From Frankineae bacterium MT45 (GTDB taxonomy: Bacteria; Actinomycetota; Actinomycetes; Mycobacteriales; Jatrophihabitantaceae), in the NCBI GenBank assembly GCA_900100325.1, contig LT629697.1:1919423-1983422 (forward strand): DNA of 64,000 bases, written 5' to 3'. Below, one piece after another: positions 12,331 to 36,352 of this stretch. A program made the position numbers and the translations under genes. Position 1 is the first letter of the stretch, and the number at the start of each line of letters is the position of its first letter. The notes under the pieces are model-generated. The model worked only from the letters and a program-made list of their open reading frames with translations, searched no databases and was not told where the DNA came from.

Positions 12331-13902
12331 CTACTTCCCCGAGCAGCTGAAGCTGACGTAGACGCTGGCTGGATCCTTCGAGTTGCGTTGGACGATCTGC
12401 TGCAGGCTCTGCGTCTCTTCGATGGTCTTCAGCCCGAGCGTGGAGAACGTCTGCGGCGAGTAGACGTGCCGCGCCAGCAGCGGATTCGTCAGCGCCTGAG
12501 TGAAGGCATCGTTGGCCACCATCGACGTGAGCAGGTCGCCCATCATCATGTAGTCGGGGTACTCCTCGGCGAAGATGCCGACGTACCACTCCAGGTTGTC
12601 GATATCGCCGTAGAGCGACTGGAGGCGCTCCTGGACGGCCTTGTCATGCGTCAGTTCGTGATAGCTGGTCATCCGCTTGTGACCGTAGGCCTCGCGGTAG
12701 TCGTTGTAGGAGCACAGCCGGGCCGAGCGGCCGAGCATCACCGTGCGCTCCTCGATCGACGGTGAGTCACCGTGCCGATCAACCAGAAATGTCGGGGTGT
12801 TGTGGAGCCCGATCTTGCCGGCGAGCACGTTCGAGCACTGGCTCATCAGCTTCTCGACGCCGAGCGAGATCACCAGCGGGTTGTTGTTGCGCACCGCGTC
12901 GGCACCGATCTCGTCGGCTCCCTCACCGATGGCATCCGGGACGAGCATGTGCCACCGGTACAGGATGTTGAACTCCACAGCGGCCCAGTTGGTCCGGTTC
13001 CAGCGCTCGCTGTCGGCGATCAGGGGTACCAGTTCGACCGGCACGTCCCAGGGGCCGATGTGCTTGATGTACTCCTCGACGACGAGCTTGAGCAGCAGCA
13101 CGATGGTGATGTTCCGCGTCGTCTGGAAGATTCGCTCGTCGTCCCACTCCGGGTACCGCGCGGCGAGTTCACCGGCCAGGCGATTGTGCTCCCGAAGCCA
13201 GACGATATTCATGATCGTGTTGCCGATGGTGGAGTTGCCGTGGGCGAGGCCGACGGCGAAGAATGAGTCCTTCCGATCGTCCGGGGCATCGCCCAGGATC
13301 ACGTTGAGGACGAAGTTCTCGTCGAAGAGCCCGACGAATTCGGGTTTCACCACCAGATCGGCTCCTGGCTCGCGGGGTTGGAAGTAGAACTGCGGGTACT
13401 CCTCGCCGTCGATGAGCTGACTCTTCAGCCGGCCACCCTCGTGCGAGCGCAGCAGTTCGGTCTGAGCGGGTGTGAGGCCGTAGATCTCGCAGAGGTCGAT
13501 CTCGTGGTTCGAATGATTGCGGCGAAAGTCCACCATGTCGGTTGAGAGGAAGCTGTCGACGAACCACTGCGCGAAGAACATGAACATCACGCTGGTGTCG
13601 GTCGACTTGATCTCCTTCTTCCGGCGAAACAACGCCACCACCTCCTCCTGTGGTGGCAGCGCGGCGATCGCCTCGTCGCTGGCCGGTGGCAGATGGCGTC
13701 CCGAGTAGCTGCGGTCGGTCAGACTGGCCCAGCTCGTGTAGTCGCTCATCAGCGACAGTGGGCGGGGGCGCAGGGTCGTCGAGTAGCTGAATTCATTGAT
13801 GATCAACCCGCTCAGCAGGCCGCGGACCGCCGGCACGTCCCGCAGCGGGCCGACCAGTTTCGGGATCAGGTGATTGATCGACTTCGGCAGCTGCGGAAAC
13901 AT
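12331..13902 (-). CDS. Cyclooxygenase-like animal-type heme peroxidase/dioxygenase
   Basis: About 523 residues if started at the ATG at 13902; a GTG at 13953 is the alternative, and the longer open frame overlaps the MarR gene and is not used. It tracks the cyclooxygenase core almost throughout. TSWASLTDRSYSGRHLPP matches the COX SW-F--LSYYTRALPP segment. Also matching are MFMFFAQ (106-112), KSQLIDGEEYP, WLREHNRLAGEL and EFNILYRWHMLVPD, with Tyr315 at the catalytic tyrosine and His318 at the proximal heme ligand, plus YHELTHDK and LYGDIDNLEWY. The distal histidine position aligns with Asp116 (QWFVD), while the neighbouring Gln112 is kept. No signal peptide is seen. Predicted fatty-acid dioxygenase; substrate unknown. 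Downstream of the MarR gene in one operon. Confidence 0.85.
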   Translation of the reverse strand: MFPQLPKSINHLIPKLVGPLRDVPAVRGLLSGLIINEFSYSTTLRPRPLSLMSDYTSWASLTDRSYSGRHLPPASDEAIAALPPQEEVVALFRRKKEIKSTDTSVMFMFFAQWFVDSFLSTDMVDFRRNHSNHEIDLCEIYGLTPAQTELLRSHEGGRLKSQLIDGEEYPQFYFQPREPGADLVVKPEFVGLFDENFVLNVILGDAPDDRKDSFFAVGLAHGNSTIGNTIMNIVWLREHNRLAGELAARYPEWDDERIFQTTRNITIVLLLKLVVEEYIKHIGPWDVPVELVPLIADSERWNRTNWAAVEFNILYRWHMLVPDAIGEGADEIGADAVRNNNPLVISLGVEKLMSQCSNVLAGKIGLHNTPTFLVDRHGDSPSIEERTVMLGRSARLCSYNDYREAYGHKRMTSYHELTHDKAVQERLQSLYGDIDNLEWYVGIFAEEYPDYMMMGDLLTSMVANDAFTQALTNPLLARHVYSPQTFSTLGLKTIEETQSLQQIVQRNSKDPASVYVSFSCSGK

Positions 13903-32090: not shown

Positions 32091-32223
32091 CGCCGTAGAC
32101 GTGGCCCGCGCACGGAGAGATACTGCCTGTGACTGAGGTCACCTTCGTGGCTCTTTGCCGCCGGGGGACAGACAACCGAGGCCCAATGACAGGTCTATCC
32201 GTCACGCGCGGAATGGAGCGATC

Positions 32224-34071
32224 ATGAGTGACACCGAAGAGGCCGCTGGTAAGAGCACCTCGGACGAACCGGACCGGCCCGGCTTCTTCACCAGGGCCTA
32301 CGACAAGGCAGCTGAGAGCGTCGATCGCAAGGTTGGCTGGTACAAGCTACCGAAGCCGCTCGGACTGCTCGACCTTATCGGAATCCGCAATATTCTCCGG
32401 GAGAAGAACCTCTACGACACGTCGCGCATGCCGGCGGTGAACCCGGTCATGCCGCCACCCTTCGACGAGTCGTTCCGCACGCACCGCACCTTCGACGGCA
32501 GCTGGAACGACCTCGAACATCCGGAGATGGGGATGGCCGGAACGCGGTTCGGCCGCAACGTCCCGATCGCGGATACCTGGCCTGACCCCGAACGGATGCT
32601 GGAACCAAACCCGCGGGAGGTGAGCCGCCGCCTGATGACCCGCACCGACCTCATTCCAGCCTCGGCCGGCAACGCACTTATCGCCGCGTGGCTGCAGTTC
32701 ATGATTCACGACTGGTTCCGGCATGGCACGAGCCCGAAGGACAATCCCTGGGTACTTCCGGCCGTTGCGGGCGACGATTGGCCGACTCCGCCGGTGCTGG
32801 TCATGCGCACACCGGTCGACACCACCATGCCCCCGGAGTCGGATCAGCCGCCTACGCACGTCAACATCCTCACGCACTGGTGGGACGGATCGCAGATCTA
32901 CGGCAACAGCCTGGCTGAACAGGAGTTCCTGCGCAGCCACGAGGGCGGCACGCTGCGGCTGGTCAACGGGTTGCCCCCCATCCCGGACGACCCGACCAAG
33001 AATCCGACCCTCTCGCCCGGGTTCTGGCTCGGCCTCGGGATGCTGCAGACCCTCTTCGTTCACGAACACAACAGCATCTGCGCGATGCTGGCCGAGGCCT
33101 ACCCGGAATGGGACGATGAGACGATCTTCCAGCGCGCCCGTCTCATCAACGCCGCACTGCTGGCCAAGATCCACACCGTCGAATGGACGCCGGCAGTCAC
33201 CGCCCACCCCACCGCGGTCACCGCGCTGCACGCCAACTGGTGGGGCTTGGAGGGAAAGAAGCTGCACGACGCGTTCGGCCGGCTCAGTAAGGACGAAGCG
33301 ATCTCCGGCATTCCCGGGTCCGAGACCGCCGATTACGGCGTCCCCTTCGCGCTCACCGAGGAGTTCGTAGCGGTGTACCGGATGCACCCGCTGATTCCTG
33401 ATCACTTCGACTTCCGGTCGGCCACCGACGACGCGGTGACGATCGGCGGCAAGGAGTTCGACGAACTCAGCGGACCGGGCGGCGCCGACATGCTGCGCGA
33501 CAACAACCTCACCGACCTCATCTACACCTTCGGAACGATGAACCCGGGGTTGGTGACCCTGCACAACTACCCGAAGTATCTACAGACGTTCAAGCGACCC
33601 GACACCGGTGACCTGATGGACCTGGCCGCCGTGGATATTCTGCGCAGTCGCGAACTAGGCGTTCCTCGCTATACCGAGTTCCGTCGCCTGCTCCATCTGC
33701 CCGTCCCGGAGAGCTTCGAGGAGATCACCAGTAATAAGGAGTGGGCGGCCGAGCTCAGTGATGTCTACGGCGGTGACCTGAGCCAGGTCGATCTCATCGC
33801 CGGGATGTTCGCCGAGGATCGTCCGGAGGGCTTCGCCTTCAGCGACACGGCGTTTCGGATCTTCATCCTGATGGCATCCCGGCGGCTCAACAGCGACCGC
33901 TTCTTCACCACGCACTTCACCGACGAGGTCTACACGCCCGAGGGAATGGAGTGGATCAAGGAGAACACGATGTTGGACGTGCTCCGCCGGCACTGTCCGG
34001 AGCTCATCCCAACTTTGGAGGACCTGCCCAACGCGTTCGCGCTCTGGACCCGTCGAGGTGCACAGAAGTGA
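32224..34071 (+). CDS. Alpha-dioxygenase-like heme fatty-acid oxygenase
   Basis: 615 residues from the ATG at 32224, behind GGAG. The sequence follows plant alpha-dioxygenases (about 620-640 residues) along its whole length: WLQFMIHDWFRHGTS places the distal heme His at 162, THWWDGSQIYGNS and VHEHNSICAMLAEAYPEWDDE follow, and FVAVYRMHPLIPDHF gives the radical Tyr385 and proximal His388. All catalytic residues are therefore present. These enzymes oxygenate fatty acids at C-alpha to 2-hydroperoxides, which decarboxylate to the shortened aldehyde. No signal peptide or transmembrane helix is seen. First gene of a three-gene operon; GTGA stop-start overlap with the next. Confidence 0.9.
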   Translation: MSDTEEAAGKSTSDEPDRPGFFTRAYDKAAESVDRKVGWYKLPKPLGLLDLIGIRNILREKNLYDTSRMPAVNPVMPPPFDESFRTHRTFDGSWNDLEHPEMGMAGTRFGRNVPIADTWPDPERMLEPNPREVSRRLMTRTDLIPASAGNALIAAWLQFMIHDWFRHGTSPKDNPWVLPAVAGDDWPTPPVLVMRTPVDTTMPPESDQPPTHVNILTHWWDGSQIYGNSLAEQEFLRSHEGGTLRLVNGLPPIPDDPTKNPTLSPGFWLGLGMLQTLFVHEHNSICAMLAEAYPEWDDETIFQRARLINAALLAKIHTVEWTPAVTAHPTAVTALHANWWGLEGKKLHDAFGRLSKDEAISGIPGSETADYGVPFALTEEFVAVYRMHPLIPDHFDFRSATDDAVTIGGKEFDELSGPGGADMLRDNNLTDLIYTFGTMNPGLVTLHNYPKYLQTFKRPDTGDLMDLAAVDILRSRELGVPRYTEFRRLLHLPVPESFEEITSNKEWAAELSDVYGGDLSQVDLIAGMFAEDRPEGFAFSDTAFRIFILMASRRLNSDRFFTTHFTDEVYTPEGMEWIKENTMLDVLRRHCPELIPTLEDLPNAFALWTRRGAQK

Positions 34072-34580
34072 CCGCCGTTGATCCGCGGGTGGCGATAGTC
34101 AACGAGCACATGCGACTGGAGAATGCCTACGACTTCGTTGGCTGTACGGGCGTATTCGGCCATGCCAAGTACGAGATCGTCGCCGACGGCGAACTCTACG
34201 ACGGCGCGGCACGGGTACAAGACTTTCTCGGACAGAACCACGGCGCCTTCCCTGACTTTGTCTTCGCGCCGACCCGGGTCGCGCCCACCACCGATGCCGT
34301 GCTGGTCGAAGGGCGGTTCGAGGGCACACATCTGGGGAACTGGCGAGGCCTACCGGCCACTGGCCGGAGGGTGGACTTCGCGATGTGCCTCATCTTCGAG
34401 TTCGAGGGTGAGTCGATGGTGAACGAGAAGGTGTACTTCGATCTGAACACGCCGCTGCGGCAACTCGGGGTGGCTGACGACCCGAACTCGATTCGGGGCA
34501 AGGTCGATCTGGTTCTGACTCACCCGCTCGTCCTCATCAAGGCGCTGCTGCGCAAGCTCACCCACCCATCGAAGAAGTAG
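34068..34580 (+). CDS. NTF2/SnoaL-like protein
   Basis: The GTG at 34068 overlaps the alpha-dioxygenase stop (GTGA), indicating tight translational coupling. The 170-residue product has the cone-shaped NTF2 pattern: an N-terminal helix (RVAIVNEHMRLENAYDFVG), YDGAARVQDFLGQNHGAFPDF, strands VLVEGRFEGTHLGNW and FAMCLIFEFEGESMVNEKVYFD. SnoaL-like members act as cyclases, isomerases or hydratases, or simply bind small hydrophobic ligands. A basic, hydrophobic C-terminal tail (LTHPLVLIKALLRKLTHPSKK) could contact membrane or the oxygenase. The context suggests it handles the unstable 2-hydroperoxy product. That is inferred. Confidence 0.8.
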   Translation: MTAVDPRVAIVNEHMRLENAYDFVGCTGVFGHAKYEIVADGELYDGAARVQDFLGQNHGAFPDFVFAPTRVAPTTDAVLVEGRFEGTHLGNWRGLPATGRRVDFAMCLIFEFEGESMVNEKVYFDLNTPLRQLGVADDPNSIRGKVDLVLTHPLVLIKALLRKLTHPSKK

Positions 34581-34587
34581 CAGAACG

Positions 34588-35349
34588 ATGAGCGTCCTCG
34601 CGACCGTCATCTATACAGCCTTGCTGGCCTGGGGATTCAGCGTCGGTGTGCGGCAGATTTATCAGGCCCACCAACGACCGGCGCAGTTGCTGAACCCGCT
34701 CTTCTCAAACCGCGTGGCGATTCAGATGTTCACGCTTCACATCGTTGTCGTCACCAGCGATCTCTTCATCGTCGGACCCTGGGCTCTCGCGCACAAGAGT
34801 CCGCTCTGGTACTGGGGCGGGCGGATCGCGCTCTTCATCTCGGCGCTCCCGATCGCGGCCTACCTCAACCGCAATCCCCAATCTTTTGGCTGGTTCATCG
34901 GCCGCTGGGTGACATTTCGCAACTTCTTCGAGTACACGCTGCACGTGATCGTCGCGGCGATGGCCATCAACTGGTTCCACTACTACATCCTGCTGTGGTG
35001 GCTCGTTGCCTACCGCTACCTTGACGTGGGACCCCGGCGGGCCCTGCAGAAGCTGTACAACACTCCCGAGAAGCGCGCCGCTCGACCCTGGGGTCAGGCC
35101 CTCAACTGGGGTGTCATCACCACCATCTACGTGCTGACCTTTGTCGCGGTCTACAACCGTCAGATCATCTGGGCCAAAGTGCCGGCGGACGACGTTGCCA
35201 TGCACGTTCCGGCGCACTGGGAGATCGCCGTCGTGGTTGGCGGCAACCTCGTGCTGGCACTGGTCACCTGGATCAACACCCGCCGCTACACCGATTCGAT
35301 CCTGGCTGAGAACGGGGTCACCTTGAAAGTCACGGCCAGCCGACCATGA
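34588..35349 (+). CDS. Six-helix membrane protein of the alpha-dioxygenase operon
   Basis: The ATG at 34588 is 7 bases after the NTF2-like gene stop, giving 253 residues. Six hydrophobic helices are predicted: VLATVIYTALLAWGFSVGV, IQMFTLHIVVVTSDLFIVGP, YWGGRIALFISALPIAAYL, YTLHVIVAAMAINWFHYYI, VITTIYVLTFVAVYN and IAVVVGGNLVLALVTWI. Several His and Trp residues lie within helix 4 (LHVIVAAMAINWFHYY). No known family was recognised. Being the third member of the operon, it may localise the soluble oxygenase to membrane lipid or move substrate or product. No direct evidence exists. Confidence 0.75.
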   Translation: MSVLATVIYTALLAWGFSVGVRQIYQAHQRPAQLLNPLFSNRVAIQMFTLHIVVVTSDLFIVGPWALAHKSPLWYWGGRIALFISALPIAAYLNRNPQSFGWFIGRWVTFRNFFEYTLHVIVAAMAINWFHYYILLWWLVAYRYLDVGPRRALQKLYNTPEKRAARPWGQALNWGVITTIYVLTFVAVYNRQIIWAKVPADDVAMHVPAHWEIAVVVGGNLVLALVTWINTRRYTDSILAENGVTLKVTASRP

Positions 35350-35491: not shown

Positions 35492-36352
35492 ATGACAATC
35501 AGCAGCGAAGTGCTGCGCTACACGGCGTTCACCCGCGACCCGCAGGGTGGCAATCCGGCCGGCGTCCTGCTGGACGCGACCGGTGTGAGCCCGAGCCATA
35601 TGCAGCAGATCGCCGCCGACGTCGGCTACTCGGAGACGGCCTTCCTGGTGCCGACCGGGGAGCGAACCTTCGCCGTCCGCTACTTCGCGCCGCGGGCTGA
35701 GGTCCCATTCTGCGGCCATGCCACCATCGCCGCGGCCGTCGCCTACGCCGAGCGCGCCGGTGACGGTCCGCTGCACCTCGACACGCCGGTCGGCCGAGTA
35801 GAAGTCACGACGACCGCGGCTGGTGCGAGTGCCGGCCAGTTGGTGGCCGCGACTCTGCAGAGTGTGCCGCCCGACGTCAAGGAGTTGACACCAGACGATC
35901 TGACGAACCTGCTGGCCGCGCTCGGTTGGAGCCACGAGGATCTCGACCCGCATCTCCCGCCGCGCGTCGCCTACGCCGGTGCCTGGCACCCGATCCTCCC
36001 CGTCGCCACCCGCAGTCGGCTGGCCGCACTCGACTATGACTTCGCGCAGCTGGGTGAACTCATGGCGCTTCGCGGTTGGACGACGGTGAATCTCATCTGG
36101 CGGGAGTCGCCGCGGGTCTTCCATGCCCGTAACCCGTTCCCGCCCGGGGGAGTCGTCGAGGACCCGGCCACCGGGGCCGCTGCGGCTGCGCTCGGGGGTT
36201 GGCTGCGCGCGCTACGGCTCGTCGAGGTGCCGGCGACGGTCACCGTTCACCAAGGGGCAGACATGGGGCGGCCGAGCCTGATCACCGTCGGAATCGGCGC
36301 CTTGGAGGGGAGTGGTATCGACGTGAGTGGCACGGCGGTTGCCATGGGGTGA
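35492..36352 (+). CDS. PhzF-family isomerase/epimerase-like protein
   Basis: 286 residues, the usual PhzF length. The N-terminal half carries YTAFTRDPQGGNPAGVLLD and GYSETAFL with Glu48, the catalytic acid/base position in PhzF. FGVRYFAPR-type strands (here TFAVRYFAPRAEVPFCGHA) and the C-terminal GVVEDPATGAAAAALGGWL complete the diaminopimelate-epimerase-like fold. PhzF itself isomerises a phenazine intermediate, but most homologues have unknown substrates and no phenazine gene is present. It stands alone, 142 bases after the alpha-dioxygenase operon in the same direction. Confidence 0.88.
   Translation: MTISSEVLRYTAFTRDPQGGNPAGVLLDATGVSPSHMQQIAADVGYSETAFLVPTGERTFAVRYFAPRAEVPFCGHATIAAAVAYAERAGDGPLHLDTPVGRVEVTTTAAGASAGQLVAATLQSVPPDVKELTPDDLTNLLAALGWSHEDLDPHLPPRVAYAGAWHPILPVATRSRLAALDYDFAQLGELMALRGWTTVNLIWRESPRVFHARNPFPPGGVVEDPATGAAAAALGGWLRALRLVEVPATVTVHQGADMGRPSLITVGIGALEGSGIDVSGTAVAMG

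Follow-up and report, generated by a model that had tools for sequence, protein, structure and literature searches.

The window analysed here, a 64,000-nucleotide stretch of the genome of Frankineae bacterium MT45 (G000), contains a gene for an alpha-dioxygenase (alpha-DOX) followed on the same strand by genes for a SnoaL/NTF2-like protein and an orphan integral membrane protein (Table 1). The GTG start codon of the NTF2-like gene lies inside the stop of the alpha-DOX gene, resulting in a 4-nt overlap (GTGA), and 7 nt separate the NTF2-like stop codon from the start of the membrane protein gene. These gene boundaries, the overlap and the gap had been reported in a first-pass annotation and were all confirmed by a check of the open reading frames (ORFs).

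Table 1. Coordinates of the three genes and of an upstream palindrome within the window
Feature	Coordinates	Strand	Description
CRP/FNR-type palindrome TGTGA-N6-TCAC (TGTGACTGAGGTCAC)	32128..32142	+	upstream of operon; possible operator
Alpha-dioxygenase (alpha-DOX) gene	32224..34071	+	ATG to TGA, 615 aa; heme, peroxidase-cyclooxygenase superfamily
SnoaL/NTF2-like gene	34068..34580	+	GTG to TAG, 170 aa
Orphan integral membrane protein gene	34588..35349	+	ATG to TGA, 253 aa

The same trio was present in a congener (G018), with the first two genes again overlapping by 4 nt (ATGA) and the third starting 7 nt after the second. Amino acid identities between the two species were 92% for the alpha-DOX, 91% for the NTF2-like protein and 93% for the membrane protein, and the differences clustered at third codon positions. 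Pairwise NG86 comparisons yielded dS values of 0.74 to 0.89 across the three genes and dN/dS ratios of 0.054 (alpha-DOX), 0.064 (NTF2-like protein) and 0.055 (membrane protein). Ratios of 0.05 to 0.06 per gene indicate that all three are real genes subject to strong purifying selection, and the recurrence of the trio with identical spacing and such low ratios argues against a chance arrangement. That the tight coupling is retained in another species speaks for joint transcription and a joint function. Between the trio and a PhzF-like gene, G018 has two opposite-strand ORFs (our own ORF picks), while the trio itself is uninterrupted; the downstream PhzF-like gene of the window (35492-36352) was, therefore, rejected as a fourth member.

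The palindrome upstream of the operon was retained in G018 within otherwise diverged DNA. It was the sole CRP/FNR-type site in the window, yet 33 of 100 shuffled windows held at least one such site, and hence it is a weak candidate for an operator. Scans for sigma-70 promoters and terminators detected nothing exceeding chance.

The oxygenase was identified by several sequence comparisons. It matched the Pfam family An_peroxidase (PF03098) with 349.8 bits, and its best PDB matches were to Arabidopsis fatty acid alpha-oxidase (4kvj; E = 9e-112, 377 bits, covering residues 21 to 609 of 615) and rice alpha-dioxygenase (4hhr; E = 1.6e-104), with far lower scores for lactoperoxidase (88 bits, 4.9e-24) and cyclooxygenase-2 (COX-2; 66 bits, 1e-17). 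Distal His162 (FMIHDW), catalytic Tyr385 and proximal His388 (VYRMHP) were found at the positions first proposed for them. The carboxylate-binding set was also present, consisting of His317 and Thr322 (AKIHTVEWT) and Arg553, Arg554 and Arg559 (ASRRLNSDRFF). These residues correspond to the plant DOX assignments, which in rice numbering are distal H157, H311, T316, the catalytic Tyr, proximal H382 and R559 (PMC8720084). Across 53 bacterial homologues, Tyr385, His388, His317, Thr322 and Arg553/554/559 were invariant; the distal position was His in 46 and Arg in 7. By every sequence test the protein is thus a genuine alpha-DOX, and the initial assignment to the plant-like alpha-dioxygenases is strongly supported by the Pfam match, the 4kvj and 4hhr matches and the residues conserved over the 53 homologues.

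Arg replaced the distal His in the alpha-DOX of loci L066, L067 and L070 to L072 and also in that of L004, L068 and L083. The first five of these loci additionally carry a catalase-related protein in which Asn takes the place of the distal His (NTKT), as read directly in L067, L070, L071 and L072; the L066 alignment stops short of this position. The combination of an Arg-for-His alpha-DOX with an Asn-for-His catalase-related protein was seen in no other locus examined here. A second heme oxygenase of the superfamily is encoded in the window at 12331-13899 on the minus strand. It is cyclooxygenase-like, with prostaglandin G/H synthase 1 as its best PDB match (E = 7.5e-56), and keeps the Tyr-x-x-His motif (LYRWH); the COX segment AQHFTHQF reads AQWFVDSF, and the distal His thus appears to have been lost. 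The congener also has a homologue of this protein, and in G638 a homologue adjoins a catalase-related gene.

The second protein of the trio matched Pfam SnoaL (PF07366; 57.9 bits, cutoff 28.4) and SnoaL_2 (PF12680; 38.9 bits, cutoff 27), profile matches that place it in the SnoaL/NTF2-like superfamily as a fold family. Polyketide cyclase chemistry of the SnoaL type was not supported, as the catalytic Asp of SnoL (2gex) aligned with Val122 in one low-scoring pairwise alignment. Six polar positions (Glu18, Asp63, Glu81, Glu120, Tyr123 and Asp125) were invariant among eight homologues. A C-terminal extension (residues 136 to 170) ends in an amphipathic, basic helix (HPLVLIKALLRKLTHPSKK) with a hydrophobic moment of up to 0.46, which could plausibly act as a membrane-surface anchor. 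Relatives of this protein were detected in 28 of 44 alpha-DOX-bearing genomes. The best eight homologues outside the genus (about 30 to 38% identity) were located amid unrelated genes with no adjoining DOX.

Six helices had been proposed for the third protein, and six hydrophobic segments were confirmed (residues 3-21, 43-61, 73-93, 118-136, 171-189 and 213-231), predicting six transmembrane segments. This protein had no relative in Pfam, NCBIfam or PDB, and no homologue ties it to lipids. Homologues were missing from the other 22 genomes searched of the family, from 394 other genomes of the class and from 42 other alpha-DOX-bearing genomes, while 395 other genomes of the phylum yielded nothing but one fragment (G958; E = 0.005, 78 residues, internal stop) that was judged to be a chance match; these sets overlap partly and comprise about 800 genomes altogether. 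An origin as a plasmid or viral gene was rejected, as no match was detected in the plasmids or viral contigs searched. The protein was thus present in 2 of 44 alpha-DOX-bearing genomes, namely, the window genome and G018. AlphaFold models based on two-row alignments were too poor for use, with mean pLDDT values of 41 for the membrane protein and 37 for the NTF2-like protein.

The trio had been put forward as a three-gene alpha-oxidation unit of a kind not previously known, with conservation of the gene order as the proposed check. Conservation of the gene order was observed in two species of one genus but not beyond: the trio order was absent from the 42 other alpha-DOX genomes and from the surroundings of more than 50 DOX loci, in collections that are samples and with a pattern-based scan that detects close relatives only. 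A wider unit is, therefore, only partly supported; the trio appears specific to the genus in everything searched, and its interpretation as a widespread system was rejected for the genomes examined. The claim of novelty seems right for the trio but not for bacterial alpha-DOX itself, which was described earlier (PMC8720084). In a DOX tree, the two trio species and five actinobacterial DOX formed one clade with a support of 100/100. The five closest alpha-DOX relatives (L004 to L008; 67 to 74% identity) had no recognisable partner, their neighbours being a serine dehydratase, GH2, ABC-F and an alpha/beta hydrolase. Another family member, G010, has two DOX. Upstream of the first are genes for a catalase-like, a hypothetical and a weakly DyP-like protein; the second is a fragment followed by an opposite-strand gene. 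The genes around homologues were called by us from ORFs, in some cases approximately. The simplest history would be that the DOX is older and that both partners joined it in this genus.

Neighbours of alpha-DOX in other bacteria were surveyed at 56 other, unevenly sampled loci. A catalase-related domain was fused to or near the DOX in 19 of these. It was fused to the DOX N terminus in L018, L026, L057 to L060, L129 and L130 and to the C terminus in L073, L074 and L076; it was encoded by an adjoining gene in L075, L077 and L078, with a 4-nt overlap in L075, and lay within a few kilobases in L066, L067 and L070 to L072. This domain resembles catalases and the allene oxide synthase domain of corals only weakly, and the natural fusions recall those of allene oxide synthase with lipoxygenase in corals. 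No description of DOX-catalase fusions was found in the open literature searched, although one may exist elsewhere. Other recurrent neighbours were a P450 (L066, L067, L080, L081, L084 and L128), a GMC oxidoreductase (six Geodermatophilaceae-type loci and Calothrix L126), an FAD-linked oxidase (L013, L015, L127 and L128) and a thiamine-dependent enzyme (L057, L060, L128 and L129). In the last two groups of loci, cytochrome c and a lipase or patatin were also among the neighbours, and these loci possibly represent a fuller bacterial alpha-oxidation cluster leading from the hydroperoxide via 2-hydroxy and 2-keto acids to the aldehyde; some are plasmid-borne (Rhizobium, Phyllobacterium and Streptomyces). 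Apparent fusions in the form of N-terminal DOX extensions in L068 and L082 were discounted as being mostly Arg-rich read-through of other frames. L068 perhaps has a DUF4267-like membrane protein directly before the DOX (weak match), unrelated to the membrane protein of the window. The catalase-related partner was absent from the window and was not found in G018; a search of G000 detected one weak partial match (E = 8.5e-6) in a 728-aa frame elsewhere. Judged by gene neighbourhoods, the theme of bacterial alpha-DOX appears to be pairing with differing helper proteins, of which the trio would be a local, genus-level variant.

From the observed genes, family identities, catalytic residues, conserved coupling and selection, we infer an activity, a substrate, complex formation and roles for both partners; the reading that we favour, and consider fairly probable, is that one actinobacterial genus has a three-gene operon centred on an alpha-DOX with membrane-associated accessory partners. 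By analogy with the plant and cyanobacterial enzymes, a heme-generated Tyr385 radical would take the alpha-hydrogen from a free fatty acid, with His317 and an Arg from the ASRRL motif region holding the carboxylate. Addition of O2 would produce a 2-hydroperoxy acid, followed by decarboxylation to the Cn-1 aldehyde or reduction to the 2-hydroxy acid. For the NTF2-like protein, the translation of which is coupled to that of the DOX, the most likely role would be that of a peripheral membrane accessory binding either the fatty acid or the unstable product beside the DOX, and the six-segment protein would most likely supply a membrane site for this pair or move substrate or product. The first-pass annotation had likewise suggested that the NTF2-like protein may channel the hydroperoxide or its aldehyde and that the membrane protein may anchor or transport. 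The alpha-DOX that have been characterised are regarded as monotopic membrane proteins, with detergent aiding extraction (PMC8720084), which fits with a membrane partner and an amphipathic C terminus on the NTF2-like protein. Fusion or linkage to proteins that plausibly handle the product is frequent among alpha-DOX elsewhere, so a linked partner would be expected. A more ambitious version, with the NTF2-like protein as a novel non-heme handler of the 2-hydroperoxide or aldehyde replacing the catalase-related partner and the membrane protein as a new family docking the complex in the membrane or exporting the product, is distinctly unlikely.

Any joint system has to contend with the occurrence of the trio in two species only. 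The alpha-DOX may instead be self-sufficient, with the downstream genes being co-transcribed passengers or serving another step of lipid metabolism, in which case the three genes would be juxtaposed in this genus but share no mechanism. The unrelated surroundings of the five nearest DOX relatives, which apparently work without either partner and thus indicate that neither is required for the chemistry, are consistent with this explanation, as are the unrelated surroundings of NTF2-like homologues elsewhere and the restriction of the membrane protein to the genus. Against it stand the 4-nt overlap and the 7-nt gap, both kept at the level of synonymous divergence separating the two species, and the two opposite-strand ORFs of G018, which occur right after the trio, with none inside it. 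We regard this explanation as unlikely, though deserving of serious weight.

The NTF2-like protein could also be an enzyme turning over the 2-hydroperoxide or aldehyde, and would then stand in for the catalase-related proteins or P450s found next to other bacterial alpha-DOX. Such a role would be in keeping with the catalase-related domains, P450s, GMC/FAD oxidases and thiamine-dependent enzymes at other DOX loci, with the failure to find a catalase-related DOX partner in G000 or G018 and with the six invariant polar positions. It is nevertheless highly doubtful, as the alignment of the SnoL Asp with Val122 leaves known SnoaL chemistry unsupported, the five close DOX relatives have no partner and the family mostly occurs without a DOX alongside. 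The unaligned SnoL Asp and the invariance of the family's own polar positions, taken with the amphipathic C-terminal helix and the membrane association of alpha-DOX, lead us to favour an accessory role. Least credible to us is an oxygenase that acts on something other than a simple fatty acid or mainly as a peroxidase: the substrate is not readable from sequence and Arg for the distal His in some close relatives suggests that chemistry may vary within the clade, but the carboxylate-binding and radical residues are intact, distal His162 is present and cyanobacterial relatives that share these residues are alpha-DOX acting on fatty acids (PMC8720084).

A minimal operon of this type, with two dedicated partners in organisms lacking the common catalase-related one, would offer a tractable route to the fate of the unstable 2-hydroperoxy acids in bacteria. 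The recurrent company of DOX at the other loci points to bacterial alpha-oxidation clusters that could be tested.

The enzyme is of a known kind, and its partners make the operon a genus-level variant rather than a new widespread system. Plant alpha-DOX (4kvj and 4hhr) share full-length homology, the heme ligands, the catalytic Tyr and the carboxylate-binding His and Arg with the window DOX. The plant enzymes are encoded by single nuclear genes and are not known to be coupled to NTF2-like or six-segment membrane proteins. The cyanobacterial CsDOX, CalDOX and LepDOX, which yield Cn-1 aldehydes, are likewise bacterial and heme dependent with the same residues, but the papers describing them mention no partner genes or operons, unlike the trio (PMC8720084, PMC9305512). 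The window DOX is located in a separate actinobacterial clade from these three enzymes; a published tree already groups actinobacterial with cyanobacterial alpha-DOX (PMC8720084). Within the SnoaL/NTF2-like superfamily, the window protein has a fold family in common with SnoL (2gex, PF07366) by profile but differs in the unaligned catalytic Asp and the extra amphipathic C-terminal extension. Catalase-linked alpha-DOX (L026, L073, L075, L129, L130 and others) resemble the trio in having a tightly linked partner, which in those loci is a heme catalase-related domain and in the trio is instead an NTF2-like protein and a membrane protein.
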